Source of the DNA: Capnocytophaga catalasegens
GTDB taxonomy: Bacteria; Bacteroidota; Bacteroidia; Flavobacteriales; Flavobacteriaceae
Direction of reading: 5' to 3'
Assembly: GCF_026005215.1 (NCBI RefSeq)
Contig: NZ_BPMA01000027.1
Span: 1-64,000 of the forward strand
Length of the DNA: 64,000 nt
The translations under genes and the position numbers were made by a program. This document shows, piece by piece, positions 15,140-51,349 of this stretch. The stretch's first letter is position 1. Each line of letters starts with the position of its first letter. Below the pieces are notes generated by a model. The model had not been told where the DNA came from. It worked only from the letters and a program-made list of their open reading frames with translations, and did not search any database.

Positions 15140-15901
15140 ATGGGAAATTCATACATAGAAACTTCTCGAATTCGTTCCAAACGAACCAAAATACGATTAA
15201 AAAAGGAAGATTTCGAGAAATATATTCGTCAGCAAAATAAACTATGGCGAAAACTTTGGAAAATGCGTCAGGAGATTCCGTTGGTGCCACTTCCTGAGCC
15301 TTATCAAAAGGGATTTGTGCGTTTTTTTGTACTTCGGGACGATATAGCTCGGAGTAAAAGTGCCGATTTTTTCAATCAAATTTTAGAAAAAATCAATACT
15401 TACCAATATTCCGACAATCGTAAATTTCTGAAAAAGAAACGAAAACGAGGCAAAAAAATACAAGTTCCACGCGAACAAAAGTTACACAAAATCATCGAAT
15501 GGCAGTTTCCAAAATATAAAAAATTGGAATTTGACGAGAAGGAACAAGCCTATTTCATAAAAACCGAAGAATACAATCCGCAGCGGAAATCTTTTGAGAC
15601 TTTTTACGAATTTCGAGAGCCGTGGCGATTCGTTTTGCGTGTAAAGCCTTATATGATAACGCATTACAAACCTTTGGATATTGATTTGGAACGAGAACTT
15701 GCTCAGTTGAATAAGTTTTTGGACAATTACAAAGTTCGTGGAATTATACAGAAAAAAAACGTTGGGCATAGCTACGCTTGGAAAGATATTGAGAAGAAAA
15801 AAGGTAAGGAAAAATACAAAAATCCATTGCGGAATTTTAACTTTAAAAACCTTAATAATTCAGCAATGGAACTGGCAGAAATGCTTTTAAATTTTAAGTA
15901 A
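15140..15901 (+). CDS. Unrecognised highly basic protein
   Basis: A 253-residue protein with no signal peptide or membrane segment. It is very rich in Lys/Arg (for example SRIRSKRTKIRLKKEDFEKY at the start and FLKKKRKRGKKIQVPREQK in the middle) and aromatic residues. The motif REPWRFVLRVKPYMITHYKP at about residues 155-175 is the most conserved-looking piece. The basic character suggests nucleic-acid contact, but no known domain is recognised. It follows the orphan leader RNA terminator by 130 bp and precedes two small unknown genes. The region is accessory in character. Confidence 0.65.
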   Translation: MGNSYIETSRIRSKRTKIRLKKEDFEKYIRQQNKLWRKLWKMRQEIPLVPLPEPYQKGFVRFFVLRDDIARSKSADFFNQILEKINTYQYSDNRKFLKKKRKRGKKIQVPREQKLHKIIEWQFPKYKKLEFDEKEQAYFIKTEEYNPQRKSFETFYEFREPWRFVLRVKPYMITHYKPLDIDLERELAQLNKFLDNYKVRGIIQKKNVGHSYAWKDIEKKKGKEKYKNPLRNFNFKNLNNSAMELAEMLLNFK

Positions 15902-15939
15902 CAATAAAAAATAAAGAAACAAAAAATCATATAGAAAAA

Positions 15940-16095
15940 ATGTATCAATTGGAAATTCAGAAGAATGATTTGATTTTTGAATTTCAGAAATTGCCCCTTA
16001 ATGAGCAAGTTAGCGTTCTTAATGAAAAGCTGGATTTAAAAAATTACAACAAATGCAAAACAGACTTTTTGTTAGATATTTTAAACAGATACTAG
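15940..16095 (+). CDS. Small unrecognised protein (51 aa)
   Basis: An ATG at 15940 opens a 51-residue frame (MYQLEIQKNDLIFEFQKLPL ... LLDILNRY) ending in TAG. It is charged and helical, with no signal or membrane segment. It lies 38 bp downstream of the basic protein gene and 54 bp before the next small gene, in the same direction, suggesting one unit. Codon use looks coding, but the frame is short. It could be the remnant of a longer gene. Confidence 0.4.
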   Translation: MYQLEIQKNDLIFEFQKLPLNEQVSVLNEKLDLKNYNKCKTDFLLDILNRY

Positions 16096-16149
16096 ATTGA
16101 CAATCAAGTATTAATACAGATTTGGAAAAACTGGCTGGGAACAACTCTG

Positions 16150-16449
16150 ATGCACGAATTTAACAAGCGAGAGGGAATAATCTCCTTTTTTGGTTCAAAT
16201 CCTGAATTGAAGTCAGTGATGATTTCAGAAATTTTTGATTTTATTGAGCAATATTTAGTTGTGCAATATTCTGACAATGAAAGTTATGCTGATGAAATTA
16301 TCGTTTGTAATGCGGTTTTGCTTTTGTGGGATTTAGGTTATAAAAACGCCTTGCAATCGCTTATTAGAAAATATCAAACCGTTTGCGACGAATATTTCGA
16401 TGAAGAAGATTATCAAAAAATTGAGAATATTACAGAAAATGAAGGTTAA
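16150..16449 (+). CDS. Small acidic unrecognised protein (99 aa)
   Basis: A 99-residue acidic helical protein (EGIISFFGSNPELKSVMISE ... YFDEEDYQKIENITENEG). No family is recognised. Its size, acidity and position next to the SMI1/SUFU gene would fit an immunity-type protein, but that is only context. It is the third same-strand gene of the 15140-16449 group and is followed by an inverted repeat shared with the convergent fructokinase gene. Confidence 0.5.
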   Translation: MHEFNKREGIISFFGSNPELKSVMISEIFDFIEQYLVVQYSDNESYADEIIVCNAVLLLWDLGYKNALQSLIRKYQTVCDEYFDEEDYQKIENITENEG

Positions 16450-18711: not shown

Positions 18712-20916
18712 CTATTTTAAGTTATAAACTGATATGTTTTCTACATTAATTTTCCCTTTTTGAACATCAAACGATAATGAATTATATGTTTCAGTAGGGA
18801 GATAGTATTAGTTTGTACTAATTCTCCGTCATTTATGAAGATTTCTGTTAAGTTTTTATCAATGAATAATCTTATTTTGTATGATTTCTTATTTACCAAA
18901 GGTGATTTTATAATTTCTGAAGCGAAATTATTACTAAAATTTACATTTCCACTTTTGGAACGATCGAATTCAAGTGTTTTTTTGTTCAAATCAAAGATGA
19001 AACGTACTTCTTCATTATTCTGATTAAACAATTTGAACTCAAATACCGAACTTTGCTCAGGTTTTACAACGAACTCTACTTCGTAAGCTCCTTGATTTTC
19101 TTTGAGCAATCTTTCAATGATATAATTCGTATCAACAATCTTATTTTCAAATTTTTCGGTAGTGCGGCGTAGATTTTCTAACTCTCTCACAGGCATACTA
19201 TTTACTACTAAATGTTCACCATTGTGAGTTAATTTGAGTTCACGAGCAATGGTCATTGCACTTCGGAAGTGTTCCGTAGGTATATTGTTTGCATAATCCC
19301 AGTTGCTCATCCACCCGATAAAAAGGCGACGTCCGTCTTCACGTGGTATGTTGCTCCACGTAACACCCGCATAGTTATCACGTCCATAGTCAAGCCACAG
19401 CGGATAGTTCATCAGGTTTGAATGTTTTTCCATCAAAATCACCAATGAAATACTGCGTAGCACTTCCTCCATTAGGTCCGCCTGGGTTGATGCTTACGAA
19501 AAGTATCCATTTTGTTTTTCCATCATAAGTAAGTGGGAACAAATCAGGACATTCCCAAACGCCTCCGTGAGCTCCTAAGCCTTCACCGAATTCGCTAAGC
19601 TTTTCCCATTGTTTGAGATTTTTAGAGCCGTAAAAGGTAATCGTTTGCGAAGTAGCCAGTGACATAATCCATTGTTGGGTAGCATCGTGCCAAAATACTT
19701 TTGGGTCACGGAAGTCAACGATATTAGGGTCAGTAAGTACTGGATTTTGTGCATAAGGTGTGAATGTGCGTCCGTTATCAGTGCTGTATGCTATGGATTG
19801 GGTTTGGTTTTTTCCTGCCGAAGTATAGATAGCAATAATGGCATCTCTACCAAATCCTGCCGTATTGTTCTTATCTGCAATGGCACTTCCTGAGAAAATT
19901 GTTCCCAATGCATCTGGGCTTATTGCTGTAGGAAGATATTCCCAATGTACTAAGTCACGGCTTACGGCGTGTCCCCAGTGCATATTCCCTCATTTGGTTC
20001 CATAAGGATTGTACTGAAAATAAAGATGATATTCTCCATTGTGATATACCATTCCGTTCGGGTCATTCATCCAGCCATATTGCGGTGTGAAGTGATAGAG
20101 TGGGCGATAGGTTTCATTATAATTGAACTCATAGGTAGCTACCTGTTTTATTTCTTTATAGCCTATGTCAGTAGTTTTCAGGGAGCTGAAAAGCAGTGCC
20201 ACTTGTTGCTTGTTGTATTCCTTAACTGGGATAGGTATCCAATAATCTATTTTTGATTGTGCCAGTCGGATATCAATCGCTTCTCCTATTGGTTTGTTAT
20301 CGACCAGTAAGCGGATTTTAGTCTCGGGAGCTTCATTTTCTATTGGTATGAGCAGAAAATTATTATCAATTGTAAATGAAAGAGTATGATCCGTCATAAA
20401 AATACTTTTAGATTCGTTACTTTGTTCTATTTGGTCAATGAGGATATGTCCCCAGCTACCTCGTTGATTATCTACGATGCGTACCACAGCGGTCTTTCCG
20501 CCATAGTTCTGTACGTCCCACGATTGCCATTGTAGTGTTTCACTCTCTATCAAAGGGTGTGTCTTGTAAATACTTTGTCCATCGATTAGCAGTTCAATAT
20601 ATGTTTCTTGATGGGTTCCGCCACCGATAAGGAAGTTTATATACTTTCCGTTTATCGTGAAAGGATTTGAAGTAAGTACGCCTCTGGCATCGTCTCCGCC
20701 GTTGAAGCTATTTATCAGGAATTTTCCCTCAAATCCGCTTACGGATTGCTGTCCTGAATAGCTGCCTTGTGCAGGTGCGTCTCCGAAAGCGTCTCCTTCT
20801 ATAGTCCATTGATTATAATTCCCTGACTCGAAATCATCTATAATCTTATCTTGAGATGCTGTACACCCTATAAGAGTAATGGCAAATATACCATTTAATA
20901 TAAATTGTTTCTTCAT
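18712..20916 (-). pseudogene. Degenerate GH32 levanase lipoprotein, three lesions
   Basis: The reconstructed product is ~734 residues: a lipoprotein signal (ITLIGC), an N-terminal lectin-like module and a GH32 beta-propeller. Catalytic pieces survive in separate frames: WMNDPNG nucleophile, FRDPKVF, and WECPDLF acid/base. Lesion 1: TGA at 19992-19990 replaces an expected Trp codon; the frame continues in register as GNMHWGHAVSRD. Lesion 2: a net +1 (or -2) shift between about 19395 and 19425, between DGKTFKPDE and NYPLWLDYGRD. Lesion 3: a one-base loss near 18799; past it the original frame reads PTETYNSLSFDVQKGKINVE and stops at 18712. In B. thetaiotaomicron-type loci the equivalent surface enzyme initiates levan or fructan hydrolysis. 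Three independent lesions make a functional enzyme unlikely, barring base-calling errors. Confidence 0.9.
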
Positions 20917-21081: not shown

Positions 21082-22566
21082 TTATTTTGAAATTTTTACG
21101 TCTGAAAACGTTACTGCTCCATCGTTGGTAAATATACCCCAAGTATTTTGATTCATTCGGTAACAGCGTACTGATAATGCAGTTTGGTTATTTACATAAA
21201 TGGTAGCCACAGAGCCTTCTACAATAAGTGTAACATCAAATACCTTATCCGTAAGGATAGGTAGATGCACTGATGCAATGCTTACGAGCGACTGCTCTCG
21301 TGTATTTCTGTTGAAACTAAGTGTTTTTCCTTTTAGGTCGAAGAGCAAATCATAACTTTCGCGTAGGTTTCCACAAGCCCCAACTTTAATACCAAATTGT
21401 GTAGCAGTATCTGCCGTGATGCGGGTTGTTATCTTCTGAGGAGTTTTTTCCAATCTTTCAAAAACCTTAACCTCTAAGCCACTAAGTGAAAATGTCCCTA
21501 CCGGCTTATCATTAGATAATTTACTTGCTAATATATTAGCAACCCCGACACGTAATGTACCATCATCGTTCTGTGATAGTTGATGCACGGCAAGAGAACC
21601 ACCCCAACTCAAATCACTACCATCGTTATACGCATTGCGAGTAGGTATCCACCCTGTTAAATATCTGTTTTCCCCATTGGAGATAGTCTTTCCTCCATAG
21701 AAAAGGTCTCCGTCGAGAGCATCGTTTGAGGGTATTATCCAATCAGAATTACCTATTTTACGATAGCGATAAAGTATTTTCCTATTTTTATTTGCCCAAT
21801 CCCAATTGGAATAAACTAAATACTGATACTGACCCATAGTAAATACATCGGGGCATTCCAATACTCGCTCACTATTATAGTAAAAAGGGCTTTGGAGTTG
21901 CCAATGAATCAAGTCTGAAGATGTATAATGAGCTATGACGGCTTGCCAATCGTTCACTTCAGGTATGTATCCCCTTGTGGTAACAAGCATATTAAAGGTA
22001 TTTCCATCTTTAAATACGTAAGGGTCACGGAACTCATTAGCATCGTAATTATCTGATGCTTGTAAGCTAAAGTCATTTTTCTTTTGCCAAGATATTAAAT
22101 CCGTTGAGGTGGCTAAGTGTATCTTCTCCTTTGGATTAAGATTCCCATTGTGGGCAGTATAGAAAGCATAGTATGTTTCATTATGTTTTATAACAGAACC
22201 TGTACCTAATGCATCTTCTTGTGAGTTATCCGCTCCACAAGGAATAACTTTCCCTTTGTCTTCATAGGTAAATAGGTCGGTAGTTGTAGCTAAGTACCAA
22301 GGGTGAAAGGTTTCTCCAGCAGGTCGCGTATCGTGAAGATAGTATATATAGAACTTTCCGTTATCATAAAAAGGCATAGGGTCACCTACCCACGCTTTTT
22401 TCGGTCTGAAAAAAGTATGATAATCTGCCTCTGCATCATATATGTCATAACAGGTAGAGGCTTCGGGTGCTGCGTTAGGGTCATTGCTCGTGAAGTTATC
22501 ATCTAAACTGCACGATGTAACTCCTAATAGATTACAGATTATATCTAAATGAATATATTTTTTCAT
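21082..22566 (-). CDS. GH32-like beta-fructosidase lipoprotein with C-terminal beta-sandwich
   Basis: A 494-residue lipoprotein (lipobox GVTSC). The five-bladed propeller carries GDPMPFYDNGKFYIYYLHDT (nucleophile Asp region), DANEFRDPYVF (RDP motif) and RVLECPDVF (acid/base Glu). The C-terminal ~150 residues form a beta-sandwich (GACGNLRESYDLLFDLKGKT). It resembles the DUF4975-type GH32 relatives found in fructan loci. It is intact, unlike the neighbouring levanase. It lies downstream of the 42-bp repeat array and 166 bp upstream of the levanase pseudogene. Exact specificity (levan, inulin or short fructans) cannot be read from sequence. Confidence 0.88.
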   Translation of the reverse strand: MKKYIHLDIICNLLGVTSCSLDDNFTSNDPNAAPEASTCYDIYDAEADYHTFFRPKKAWVGDPMPFYDNGKFYIYYLHDTRPAGETFHPWYLATTTDLFTYEDKGKVIPCGADNSQEDALGTGSVIKHNETYYAFYTAHNGNLNPKEKIHLATSTDLISWQKKNDFSLQASDNYDANEFRDPYVFKDGNTFNMLVTTRGYIPEVNDWQAVIAHYTSSDLIHWQLQSPFYYNSERVLECPDVFTMGQYQYLVYSNWDWANKNRKILYRYRKIGNSDWIIPSNDALDGDLFYGGKTISNGENRYLTGWIPTRNAYNDGSDLSWGGSLAVHQLSQNDDGTLRVGVANILASKLSNDKPVGTFSLSGLEVKVFERLEKTPQKITTRITADTATQFGIKVGACGNLRESYDLLFDLKGKTLSFNRNTREQSLVSIASVHLPILTDKVFDVTLIVEGSVATIYVNNQTALSVRCYRMNQNTWGIFTNDGAVTFSDVKISK

Positions 22567-22649
22567 TATTATGTTATGTTAAAGATGTTTGTTACAATAT
22601 TTTGTCATTATTTCTCTATAAGAATAATTATAATCTAGATTGTATATTA

Positions 22650-22919
22650 CTTTTCCTAAATCGGAAAAGCATTATTCTACTAAGAATACTTCTTTTCCTA
22701 AATCGGAAAAGTGTTATACTACTAAGAATACTTCTTTTTCTAAATCGGGAAAGTGTTATTCTATCAAGAATTCTTCTTTTCCTAAATCAGTAAAGTATTA
22801 TTTTACTAAAAATTTTTCTTTTCCTAAATCAGGAAAGTATTATTCTACTAAGAATTTTTCTTTTTCTAAGTCAGTAAAGTATTATTCTATCAAGAATTCT
22901 TCTTTTCCTAAATCGGAAT
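22650..22919. repeat. Tandem array, 42-bp unit, six copies plus a partial
   Basis: Copies begin at 22650, 22692, 22734, 22776, 22818, 22860 and (partial) 22902. Each unit is CTTTTCC-6 nt-GGAAAAG (hairpin 1), 4 nt, ATTCT-ACTA-AGAAT (hairpin 2), 4 nt. Hairpin 2 stays paired in five of the six full units, and unit 4 changes both arms together (ATTTT/AAAAT). Hairpin 1 is perfect in units 1-2, wobble-paired in unit 3, and keeps the CTTT/AAAG base in all. The array fills the 383-bp gap between the DUF4960 gene and the GH32 gene. A 93-residue frame (22640-22921) spans it on the plus strand with 14-residue repeats, but the paired changes favour a structured nucleic-acid role. Confidence 0.9.
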
Positions 22920-22949
22920 GATATAAAACTATACTTTAAAAGAACGTTC

Positions 22950-24314
22950 TTATTTGGATAAATACTCAATAATATTTGTGGTTAATCTTTCGATATTACC
23001 GAAATAGGTATTTTCAGGCGAATTATCTTCGTTGTGCCAGTCGTAAGCCTCTATCCCTACACAGATAGTTTTCCCCGATGTTCCGTCAGAGGGATACTCA
23101 AATATGGCAGCTCTGTTCATCGCATCATTCCAATGAAAACTTGCTAAGTTAATTGCACCATTCTCGATAGACCAACGTGGCACATCATTGGCATAATCAC
23201 CCCATTCAAAGTTCCATAAAGCATTATGTGCCTTTACCTTAGTCCCTTTGCTAATCAGGAATGCGATGTTGTTAGAACCTGCTTTTTTTGTCAGTCCTGC
23301 AAAGATAGGGTGCGATTCATTGCCTTTATAACAAATACCCCAATCATCGGCAGTAGCAAAAGGAGCGTCACCTTCTCCCCACATATTATTTACTTTTTTC
23401 CCATCTTTGGCAATTCCTAAATTGGCAACATATTGCACAGCCCACGATGATAGAAATAGAGAACCTCCAGCACGATAGTAGTTTTTTATCTTGTTGATAA
23501 CCTCTGCGTTGGTAGCTTCACTTGGCAAATCTTGTGAGTCGCTATCAAGATGCCACCAAATGGTTTTATAATCCGAAAGTTTAACCTTTCCGCTTTTAAT
23601 ATCATCGAATGAAATATAAGTATGATTATCAAAGTTCTCACTAAACCACAGAAAAGCTTTCTTTTCATCATCATTTGTGATAGCAGAAGAAGATTTGGAA
23701 GTACCCAAGAAAGCTAATGCCTCAAACTGAGTAGGAACAAGAGTTACCACATACTTAAACTCCTCTCCAGCATATTGCATTGTATAAGTGACCGGATTTG
23801 TGAAATCGTGAGCAGTTCCTGAACTGGGACTTACCACAGCACCAGGAGTAGTCACAAAAGTGGGAGATAAATCGGTTACGGATTGCCCCATCGGATATTT
23901 GATAGTAATTTTACCAGTGGAGTTATCTATTTTTCCTTTGTAGTTTCCTATGTCGAAGGAAAGCATTTGGCTATATTGAGCTTTGACATTATAGTCCCAA
24001 TATAGGTTTCCATTCAATACTCGATAGGTTTTCCCTTTCGATAGGTCGATATTAGTGGTATTGTTAGGCATAATTGTAGCTCCAGAGGGGATTTCTATTG
24101 CCACATTCATTGCAGTAAAGTCGTGCGACCAAGGTGCATATACATTTATCTCCTGCTTTGTGTGGTCAATAATCCCTTCAATAGTGTTATTGACTTTAAA
24201 GGATACTATATAAGGTTCTTTGTCTATTATCAAATTCCCTTCGTGGTTTTTGTTACAGGCGATAGCTACCGCCAATAGTGTAAGTCCTTTGCAAATAGTG
24301 ATTACTGATTTCAT
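22950..24314 (-). CDS. Surface glycan-binding lipoprotein with DUF4960-type C-terminus
   Basis: A 454-residue lipoprotein: MKSVITICKGLTLLAVAIAC, lipobox Cys20. Two N-terminal DUF5018-like sandwich modules (about residues 30-200) are followed by a ~250-residue domain containing KTIWWHLDSDSQDLP, GGSLFLSSWAVQYV, DDWGICYKGNESHPIF and FEWGDYANDVPRWSIE, which resembles DUF4960. It occupies the SusE-like position after susD and would bind levan at the cell surface. The ATG at 24314 is preferred over 24338, since the latter adds eight residues before the signal peptide and overlaps the susD stop. Levan binding is inferred from context. Confidence 0.82.
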   Translation of the reverse strand: MKSVITICKGLTLLAVAIACNKNHEGNLIIDKEPYIVSFKVNNTIEGIIDHTKQEINVYAPWSHDFTAMNVAIEIPSGATIMPNNTTNIDLSKGKTYRVLNGNLYWDYNVKAQYSQMLSFDIGNYKGKIDNSTGKITIKYPMGQSVTDLSPTFVTTPGAVVSPSSGTAHDFTNPVTYTMQYAGEEFKYVVTLVPTQFEALAFLGTSKSSSAITNDDEKKAFLWFSENFDNHTYISFDDIKSGKVKLSDYKTIWWHLDSDSQDLPSEATNAEVINKIKNYYRAGGSLFLSSWAVQYVANLGIAKDGKKVNNMWGEGDAPFATADDWGICYKGNESHPIFAGLTKKAGSNNIAFLISKGTKVKAHNALWNFEWGDYANDVPRWSIENGAINLASFHWNDAMNRAAIFEYPSDGTSGKTICVGIEAYDWHNEDNSPENTYFGNIERLTTNIIEYLSK

Positions 24315-24324
24315 ATATTTCTGA

Positions 24325-25989
24325 TTAAAATCCGACATTTTGTTTGTAAATTCCCCTCACGTACCCGATTTGGTTTTGTGGTATAGGGATGTATTCATTC
24401 TTATTTTTGGTAAATCGAGCGTTGCTGTATATAACTGGGCGACGTGTTGCCTCTGTAGTATAATAGGTATTCATCACTTCATCAGCGATTCCCCATCGCA
24501 CTAAATCAAAGAAACGCTGTCCTTCCATAGCAAATTCCAATCGTCTTTCCCAGCGAAGTGCTTGTCGGGCTACCTCTTGTTTCCACGTGATGTTAGCACC
24601 AGGTACGTACGTAGCGATTTGGATGTTGGGGGCATAGCCTATCAATGAAATACTTTGTGCTGCTCTTTGGCGTACTTGGTTTATGTATTGTAGTGCTTCC
24701 TCGTGTCGATTAAGCTCTATGAGTGCTTCGGCACGCATAAGTAACACGTCGGCATAGCGTAAAACGATTCTGTTTTTGGAATTACCTCTGAAAGGGTTGA
24801 TATTCTTAAAGCAACTGCACGAAGGGTCTACGTTTTCCTTCAAGGAAGCATATACGCCGTATACATTGACATTCCTATTCCAATCCTCCTGATAAATAAG
24901 CTCGGTATTGTACTTATACGGAAGCCCTGGGATTGCTACGGTGTGGAACAAACGCGGGTCGGTTTTGTCGCTTGTAAGGTTGTAATTGTTTGTGTTGTAC
25001 GTATCAAACTGAGGTACTCCATTAGTAGTTTTGAAGGCATTTACCAAATTTTGGCTTGGTTTGTGGAAATCACAGCATCCTACTTTTTGTGGAGCGGAAA
25101 GTACATCGCCCCAATTAAGCCGTCCGTACATAGTTCCGTCCTCCGCAGAATACTGAACCGCAAAGATGGACTCTTTTCCGTTCTCATACCCACCAGGGAG
25201 AAAGTTGAAAGCAAAATCGTCTTCCAATCCGTATGGGGAGCTTAGCACCTCGTTAGTATATTTGAGCACTTGGTCAAGGTCGGTAGCGTCAATTGAGGTT
25301 ACATTGTTTGATTGGTCTTGTCGGTAGGCTTTGTACAAAAAGGCTTTGGCGAGATATGTTGCTGCGGCGTATTTGTTGGCACGTCCTTTTTGTGTTTGAC
25401 TTGGAGGAAGCAAATCGTATGCTTTTTTGAAATCATTTGTAATCCACGCCCATTGCTCGTCATTAGGCAGTGTGTTGGGAGTTTTTTCATACTCTTTGTC
25501 GGGAGTGTTTTCATCTACAAAAGGAATATGCCCGAAAACTTGTTTCAACATAAAATAGAAATGTCCTCGCAAGAAATACATTTCGCCCATACGTACATTT
25601 TTCAATGGTAAGTCGGCTTCTGAAATTTTTTGTAAAGCAGCCAGAGCGGTATTGGTACGTGAAATAGCTTTGTAGCAGTTGAACCATAATTTGTCTGCTT
25701 CGGCAAATGTAGGGTCAATATTCTGAGAGGTTTCGTAAAAGTGAAATGCTTGAATGTCAGAGGTGTCACTTCCTCCTTTGTACGCATCATCAGAGCGAAC
25801 ATTTCCGTAAGGCCAAAGGCTAAAAGGCACATCGTAATGGTCGTTTCCCAATGCAGAATATGCTGCTGTGACTAATCCTTCAACTTCGGATTGAGCCTGT
25901 TCTTGTGTCATAATTCCTTGTGGTGCATCATCAAGGAAATTACAACTTGCTAATGTAATAGCCAATGTGGTGTATAATATCTTTTTCAT
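24325..25989 (-). CDS. SusD/RagB outer-membrane starch-binding-like lipoprotein
   Basis: A 554-residue lipoprotein (MKKILYTTLAITLASCNFLD). The early TPR-like helices include AAYSALGNDHYDVPFSLWPY and MGEMYFLRGHFYFMLKQVFG, a SusD hallmark. The late segment RFTKNKNEYIPIPQNQIG is the usual SusD ending. SusD proteins cap the SusC channel and present oligosaccharides. It starts 18 bp after susC and is followed directly by the DUF4960 lipoprotein gene, forming the uptake core of the fructan locus. Confidence 0.95.
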   Translation of the reverse strand: MKKILYTTLAITLASCNFLDDAPQGIMTQEQAQSEVEGLVTAAYSALGNDHYDVPFSLWPYGNVRSDDAYKGGSDTSDIQAFHFYETSQNIDPTFAEADKLWFNCYKAISRTNTALAALQKISEADLPLKNVRMGEMYFLRGHFYFMLKQVFGHIPFVDENTPDKEYEKTPNTLPNDEQWAWITNDFKKAYDLLPPSQTQKGRANKYAAATYLAKAFLYKAYRQDQSNNVTSIDATDLDQVLKYTNEVLSSPYGLEDDFAFNFLPGGYENGKESIFAVQYSAEDGTMYGRLNWGDVLSAPQKVGCCDFHKPSQNLVNAFKTTNGVPQFDTYNTNNYNLTSDKTDPRLFHTVAIPGLPYKYNTELIYQEDWNRNVNVYGVYASLKENVDPSCSCFKNINPFRGNSKNRIVLRYADVLLMRAEALIELNRHEEALQYINQVRQRAAQSISLIGYAPNIQIATYVPGANITWKQEVARQALRWERRLEFAMEGQRFFDLVRWGIADEVMNTYYTTEATRRPVIYSNARFTKNKNEYIPIPQNQIGYVRGIYKQNVGF

Positions 25990-50037: not shown

Positions 50038-50281
50038 AATCGTCCATTGGAAACATTGGGAATCTTTCGGAGTAGTCGGAAATCTTGCGGACACTTGTCG
50101 AGAGACTTTCAGAGTAGTCGGAAGTAATTTTAGATTCTATTATAAACAAAGCCAACTAAATTTATCTGTTGGCTGTTTTTGTACATTTAAAATAAAAGTC
50201 ATAAATTTGTCAGGTTTCAGAATTTTTATCGACATCAATAGTAAAAAAAGCTGTTTAATTTATAAAAAAGTTTTATTTGTT

Positions 50282-51349
50282 ATGAAGAATTTTTTATTTT
50301 TGCATTTGATTTTGATATGGACTATTAGTTGTAATGGAAAACCAACCCATCGAGTAGAAAATCAAACAAATAACGATATGAAAGAAATTCAAAAAGAAAA
50401 TAAATCAGAAATTTATTTCGCAGGAGGCTGTTTTTGGGGGACAGAGCATTTTTTTAAACAAATACGAGGTGTTATTTCAACCGAAGTTGGTTATGCCAAT
50501 GGAAAAATTAAAAATCCAACCTACAAACAAGTTAGTTCAGGCGATACGGGTTTTGCAGAAACAGTCAAAGTTGTATATCATAGAAAAAATATCAATTTAG
50601 AAAAACTAATTGACTTATATTTCAAAACAATTGACCCAACTTCGCTGAACAAGCAAGGTAATGATATTGGTACGCAGTATCGAACAGGAATTTATTACAA
50701 AAACACTTCCGATTTGCCTATTATTCAGGCGTCTATTTCTGAATTGGCTAAAAAATATTCGCAACCTATTGTAATAGAAGTACTTCCGTTAGATAATTTT
50801 TACAGAGCAGAGGAATATCATCAGGCGTATTTAGATAAAAATCCGGGAGGATATTGTCATATATCAACAGAATTGTTTGATTTGGCTCGTAAAGCAAATC
50901 CTGTTAAATCGTTTCAAAAACCCAATGAAGAAACACTAAAAAAACAACTAACGGCAGAACAATATGCTGTAACACAAGAGAATGCTACTGAACGTCCTTT
51001 CAAAAATGAATATTGGAACGAATTTCGTCAAGGAATTTACGTAGATATTACTACGGGTGAGCCTTTATTTGTTTCATCTGACAAGTTTGATTCGGGGTGT
51101 GGTTGGCCAAGTTTTTCAAAACCTATTGATAAGAATTTAATAAAAGAAAAAACAGATACTTCACACGGAATGCAACGAATTGAAGTTAGAAGTAAAACAG
51201 GTAATTCGCATCTTGGACACGTATTTGATGACGGACCCAAAGAATTAGGAGGTTTGCGTTATTGTATCAATAGTGCTTCTTTGCGATTTATTCCCAAAGA
51301 AGAAATGGAAAAAGAAGGATATGCAGATTATATTTCACTTGTAAAATAA
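50282..51349 (+). CDS. msrAB: Bifunctional peptide methionine sulfoxide reductase MsrA-MsrB lipoprotein
   Basis: A 355-residue lipoprotein ([19 protein letters not shown]). MsrA domain ~residues 40-195: [18 protein letters not shown] with catalytic Cys, then [20 protein letters not shown]. MsrB domain ~225-350: [27 protein letters not shown], and catalytic Cys in [11 protein letters not shown]. It repairs oxidised methionine in envelope proteins; the lipobox places it in the periplasm or at a membrane. An in-frame upstream ATG at 49964 would add 106 residues across the palindromic repeat, so 50282 is used. Its stop abuts the convergent nuclease gene. Confidence 0.95.

Follow-up and report, generated by a model that had tools for sequence, protein, structure and literature searches.

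What is the tandem array that lies between a DUF4960 and a GH32 gene of Capnocytophaga catalasegens, and does it belong to anything wider than this locus? We analysed a stretch of 64,000 nucleotides (contig NZ_BPMA01000027.1 of assembly GCF_026005215.1, positions 1 to 64,000), referred to here as the window. The DUF4960 gene (22950–24338, minus strand; Pfam PF16324) lies upstream of the array and the GH32 gene (21082–22566, minus strand; PF00251, PF16346, PF08244) downstream. The array fills most of the 383-bp spacer that precedes the GH32 gene (22567–22949, minus strand), with 84 bp between its end and the GH32 start codon. The 42-bp repeat of six units and a partial one recorded in the initial annotation is real and beyond chance: TRF places it, without assigning a strand, at 22650–22918, with a period of 42 bp, 6.4 copies, 86% match, 0% indels and a score of 370. 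A superperiod of 126 bp, or three units, obtains the higher score of 412, and by unit distances the nearest unit pairs are 1-2, 4-5 and 3/6. Each unit contains two dyads, neither assigned to a strand: dyad A (CTTTTCC...GGAAAAG; 22650–22669 in unit 1) and dyad B (ATTCT...AGAAT; 22674–22687 in unit 1) recur every 42 bp, B being broken in unit 2, and their centres are 21.0 bp apart.

The array sequence was found by nucleotide search at a single place in its own genome, unlike a MITE or a dispersed repeat such as BrickBuilt or REP, which would have many genomic copies. The gap between the DUF4960 and GH32 matches, 386 bp here, measures 18–136 bp in seven other Capnocytophaga genomes; the array is absent from the orthologous spacer of all seven, and TRF detected no 42-bp array at the orthologous loci examined in relatives. 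A single ancestral unit was sought in relatives, none of which is sufficiently close. Plasmid sequences contained no relative of the array, and the Rfam search at gathering thresholds matched one tRNA elsewhere in the window and nothing at the array. The units lie head-to-tail, without the unique spacers of a CRISPR. The early impression that this is not a known element thus holds within the Rfam, plasmid and literature searches that we ran. Other repeats occur around the same genes in relatives: a 7-bp repeat near the GH32 start at the orthologous locus of genome G011, and, at four loci (L030, L035, L037, L038), 11/22/33-bp repeats on the downstream side of this GH32 gene.

The period of the array is much less private than its sequence. 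Among 58 tandem arrays detected in 814 kb of the same genome (28%; TRF score 60, overlapping rows merged with the shortest period retained), 19 have a period of 41–43 bp, 18 a period of 21–22 bp, three a period of 32–33 bp and 18 other periods, in a non-random sample made up of the contigs named in the search with the window array and the starts of contigs 1–13. The units of the 41–43-bp arrays are mostly unrelated to one another. Over all samples, adjacent copies in such arrays differ, as calculated from TRF percentages, by about 749 substitutions and 66 indel positions, the latter mostly in AT-rich arrays. A sequence common to the arrays was considered and rejected: only 15 of 861 pairs among 42 units exceeded z 4 against 25 mononucleotide shuffles per pair, some of them within one locus and some AT-rich runs. 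The scores of the window unit against L149 of genome G009 (z 6.1) and L080 of G008 (z 5.5) come from the same 25 mononucleotide shuffles only and are not used as evidence. L149 itself has a unit similar to that of L209 in a second species (z 7.6, again a weak null), the two arrays standing on opposite sides of TonB-type receptor genes whose proteins are 77% identical. The preferred short tandem period varies within the genus, being 7 bp in G012 (L151–L153, L221, L222) and 11 bp in G002 (L010), G010, G011 and G017 (L132–L140).

Besides their length, the arrays have a tie to one gene family. Of the neighbouring genes of 18 arrays, three are mutually paralogous and belong to DUF6261 (PF19775). 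The C. catalasegens genome carries 29 DUF6261 genes, and a TRF array with a period of 40–44 bp lies upstream of 17 of them, 16 of these arrays being −21 to 356 bp and one 745 bp from the start codon. A profile search of loci from other Capnocytophaga recovered 19 distinct DUF6261 genes, nine of which have a 41–43-bp array upstream; of the remaining ten, one has an 86-bp array, one a 215-bp array and eight none by TRF. The association extends to a second order: one DUF6261 gene of Parabacteroides distasonis is preceded by a 42-bp array of four copies that ends 98 bp before the start, and another in the same species shows, on visual inspection, degenerate dyads spaced at roughly 21 bp, with a best autocorrelation lag of 41. 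Two DUF6261 genes on faecal scaffolds (L292, L293) gave best lags of 42 and 41 without an array by TRF, the start codon of L293 being placed by estimate. Both scaffolds were deposited as unverified bacteriophage and may be bacterial DNA.

Autocorrelation gave the same picture without requiring an array call. Over the 450 bp preceding each DUF6261 gene, the best lag was 41–43 bp or two or three times that value in 45 of 50 regions (24/28 in the genome itself, 17/18 in other Capnocytophaga and 4/4 outside the genus), as compared with 24 of 153 other genes of the same genome whose spacers exceed 200 bp; chance alone would let 15 of 120 lags count. At z>=3 the figures are 40/50 and 11/153 (Fisher 6e-23), for a control that is not array-free, because some control spacers contain arrays of their own, and for a set of 50 in which gene calls are simple ORFs and the upstream regions of orthologues depend partly on one another. 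L289, at a contig end, holds no full gene, the upstream region of L168 was too short for autocorrelation, L287 is seemingly truncated, and L163, L176, L181–L183 and L243–L260 duplicate genes seen at other loci. The repeats themselves differ from gene to gene: similarity was seen in only 15 of 378 pairs of DUF6261 upstream regions, and for many of these 15 it lies close to the start codon instead of in the array. The orthologues L172 and L178, from two species, have arrays with a common unit and gene distance. Our analysis therefore reveals a class of intergenic arrays tied to DUF6261, in which a unit of about 42 bp, or four turns of B-DNA, is kept while its sequence is free; such arrays stand upstream of most DUF6261 genes examined, in two orders. 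Two side features of these loci can be mentioned: L090 contains a 204-bp coding repeat (15610–16178) within the gene of a 1546-residue protein, immediately upstream of a DUF6261-linked array, and a segment upstream of a DUF6261 gene in L106 (17965–18070), perhaps a common AT-rich promoter region, gives numerous scattered short matches in most Capnocytophaga genomes.

DUF6261 has a scattered distribution. It was detected in 6 of the 296 genomes of a phylum sample, C. catalasegens included. Among 19 other Capnocytophaga genomes, 13 carry it, with 1 to 25 copies each, and none of five genomes from other genera of the same family does. Searches of Pfam, NCBIfam and PDB assigned DUF6261 to no named family and returned neither a DNA-binding domain nor a relative of solved structure. 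In the literature searched, the name DUF6261 occurs in one paper, whose title concerns streptococci.

Where do the linked arrays lie with respect to transcription? The Bacteroidetes promoter consensus is TAnnTTTG. Of the 40 DUF6261 genes for which an array was detected, 15 have a promoter-like motif of this form no more than 160 bp from the start; in 14 of these 15 the array comes first and the motif after it, so that those 14 arrays would sit outside the mRNA. The motif is rarer at DUF6261 genes than in control spacers (82/159) and commoner than in shuffled sequence (about 5/46), and with 15 of 40 genes carrying it, the placement does no more than suggest that linked arrays lie outside the transcript.

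Arrays of the same period, or of double that period, also occur without an adjoining DUF6261 gene, and we call these solo. There are 14 in the 814 kb of C. catalasegens, including one (L095) that lies 745 bp ahead of a DUF6261 gene located in the following stretch. Seven were found in 740 kb from six relatives with at least nine DUF6261 copies and none in 860 kb from thirteen genomes with zero to three copies (P 0.0045, C. catalasegens excluded). We compared 12 solo arrays of this genome (all but L095 and L104) with the 50 upstream regions against dinucleotide shuffles, and two of them match a specific DUF6261-linked array of their own genome: L088 matches L269 (z 20) and also L279 (z 10), and L091 matches L278 (z 18). 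Further solo arrays reached z 4–5 with one or two upstream regions and were left uncounted because 600 comparisons were made. The window array is solo in this sense, as no DUF6261 gene adjoins it. It shares with the DUF6261-linked arrays the form of a noncoding tandem array of 41–43 bp; it is not upstream of a DUF6261 gene and shows no sequence match to a linked array.

The protein-binding array mentioned as an option in the initial annotation fits this wider evidence, and it is the reading that we favour. We propose that the helically phased arrays before DUF6261 genes are bound, as DNA, each by the protein of its own gene, and that the array of the window represents a solo site of this kind upstream of GH32. 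We regard this proposal as about as likely as not. Most likely, each DUF6261 protein would bind its own repeat as double-stranded DNA, with one assembly per four turns on a single face of the helix, and would in this way control its own promoter. As a unit spans four turns and the dyads of the window array stand two turns apart, all sites would fall on one helix face, aligned as in a cooperative protein array. Solo arrays, including that of the window, may be sites of DUF6261 proteins acting in trans, as the two matches among 12 suggest. Once bound, the window array could adjust transcription through or from the DUF4960–GH32 junction and so tune GH32, which is the weakest step of the proposal.

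Several observations count against this reading. The window contains no DUF6261 gene by profile search, the neighbours of the array being GH32 and DUF4960, and the array matches none of the 50 DUF6261 upstream regions above z 4 (best in its own genome, z 1.5). The period is lacking in five of the 50 regions, and one DUF6261 gene (L169) has a 43-bp array downstream. At L264 and L285 the array extends to the start codon of the linked gene and would therefore be transcribed there. Within the genus alone, the low-copy genomes give no solo array in 460 kb and the contrast falls to P 0.034. The lack of a recognizable DNA-binding domain in DUF6261 points in the same direction, as do the dyads, which fall short of significance over the linked arrays (combined P 0.06).

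The presence of arrays of about 42 bp before most DUF6261 genes examined nevertheless points to a DNA-recognition system that, as far as we searched the literature, has not been described: no account tying such arrays to DUF6261 was found. One can imagine, more tentatively, a genome-wide set of private recognition pairs in which each DUF6261 paralogue reads the four-turn repeat before its own gene and solo arrays recruit other genes, such as those of fructan utilisation, the geometry (42 bp, one face) being kept while the sequence drifts in both Capnocytophaga and Bacteroidales. If the pairs are specific, one small genome would contain up to 29 protein–site pairs. These would represent a natural experiment on the divergence of binding specificity, might supply orthogonal DNA-binding proteins and would add, for Bacteroidota, a level of gene control undescribed in the literature searched. 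In any case, an uncharacterized family gains a strong and testable lead through its tie to DNA arrays of constant length and variable sequence.

Such an arrangement would have precedents in plasmid biology. The iteron arrays of plasmid Rep genes and the centromere arrays parC and tubC are short repeats spaced by whole helical turns directly upstream of the gene of their binder; the protein is controlled through the repeats, and each protein has its own repeat. By analogy with Rep–iteron and ParR–parC, DUF6261 arrays would work in a similar manner, binding being inferred in their case. They differ from Rep–iteron, parC and tubC systems in belonging to a chromosomal multi-copy family and in having a four-turn unit. 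No Rep or other known initiator gene adjoins the window array, and DUF6261 has no Pfam match to Rep or ParR and no other relative in Pfam, NCBIfam or PDB; because it lacks any such domain, we do not claim membership in either group. BrickBuilt, a minisatellite-MITE of Porphyromonas gingivalis, is likewise an intergenic tandem array near gene starts in an oral Bacteroidota bacterium, but it consists of one 23-nt sequence in many copies within an element with inverted ends (PMC4596501). There one sequence is copied, whereas here the period is kept and sequences vary. The TAACTGA heptamers are also tandem direct repeats in spacers before genes, some Bacteroidetes included (PMC4679880). They conserve one 7-nt sequence, in contrast to the one length and many sequences tied to a single gene family that we observe.

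The window array could also be an ordinary minisatellite, functionless and produced by slippage or unequal exchange, with a period that reflects a mutational preference of the lineage. This has precedent in the heptamer and other short bacterial repeats, for which polymerase slippage has been proposed (PMC4679880), and it would agree with the mostly unrelated units, the lineage-specific occurrence of the window array and its three-unit block structure, as well as with the other periods favoured in other species (7 bp in G012; 11 bp in G010, G011, G017 and G002). A mutational preference leaves unexplained, on the other hand, why arrays are linked to DUF6261 on the upstream side across Flavobacteriales and Bacteroidales, and why some solo arrays match a linked one. 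We thus consider this explanation unlikely, albeit a serious one.

That the array acts as RNA, being transcribed in the leader with hairpins that set the processing, stability or translation of GH32, or that DUF6261 proteins bind such RNAs, seems to us improbable. The array does lie between co-directional genes, and both of its strands fold better than dinucleotide shuffles (z −3.34 for the minus strand and −3.88 for the plus strand). The initial annotation had seen two stems in every unit; stems are present, but stem 1 (CTTTTCC/GGAAAAG) is perfect only in units 1 and 2, with defects in each of units 3 to 6 (two non-Watson–Crick cells in unit 4, two in unit 5, three in unit 6), and unit 2 breaks stem 2 without compensation. 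The paired change ATTTT/AAAAT by which unit 4 keeps hairpin 2 is real and compensated. The G-T pairs credited with keeping hairpin 1 in unit 3 exist on the plus strand only; since GH32 is on the minus strand, they are A-C mismatches in its transcript. Over six units of 12 pairs, the plus strand has 62 of 72 Watson–Crick pairs, four G-T, three A-C and three others, and the ten mispaired cells of the GH32 strand are three G-U, four A-C and three others, that is, without wobble bias. The best stem of the window unit gives P=0.115 against dinucleotide-shuffled units and, with a different score, P=0.03 against mononucleotide shuffles.

Hairpins fare no better across the class. Covariation over 24 arrays (23 linked to DUF6261 and that of the window) counted two compensated changes against 108 one-sided changes in dyad arms, with P 0.77 relative to random centres. 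Dyads can be seen by eye in many linked units and are not claimed, because the shuffle test gives a combined P of 0.06 (2/29 arrays at P<0.05). Dyad arms are slightly less variable than rotated masks (0.076 vs 0.095, P 0.02), a point in favour of the protein-binding reading. Palindromy is not general in 41–43-bp arrays (2/19 at P<0.05 with mononucleotide shuffles, the window array being one of the two). Shuffles, arm substitution rates, compensation and pair tables do not support hairpins as the feature generally conserved. The RNA processing or stability block suggested earlier thus finds no support, given the absence of wobble bias, compensation that does not exceed that at random centres and the array preceding the promoter-like motif in 14 of the 15 DUF6261 genes that have both.

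We give little credence to a selfish or mobile cassette composed of a DUF6261 gene and its array, of which solo arrays would be footprints after gene loss. Scattered copies, from 0 to 29 per genome within the genus, would suit such an element, but most copies do not share units, the few similar upstream pairs often resemble each other near the start codon, the short spacers orthologous to that of the window leave no room for a gene, and no relative was confirmed in viral contigs. Finally, the 93-residue frame running through the array (22640–22921, plus strand), although open, can be dismissed as a translated repeat protein: it starts with TTG, is antisense to both neighbours, and is missing from the seven relatives because the array is absent from their orthologous spacers; sister arrays of 41 and 43 bp would be unable to keep a frame.

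Elsewhere in the window, two weak tandem repeats with a period of 20–21 bp occur at 50061–50299. Three neighbouring minus-strand frames (19990–20916, 19390–19983 and 18741–19472) look like one GH32-type gene in pieces, either broken or misread.
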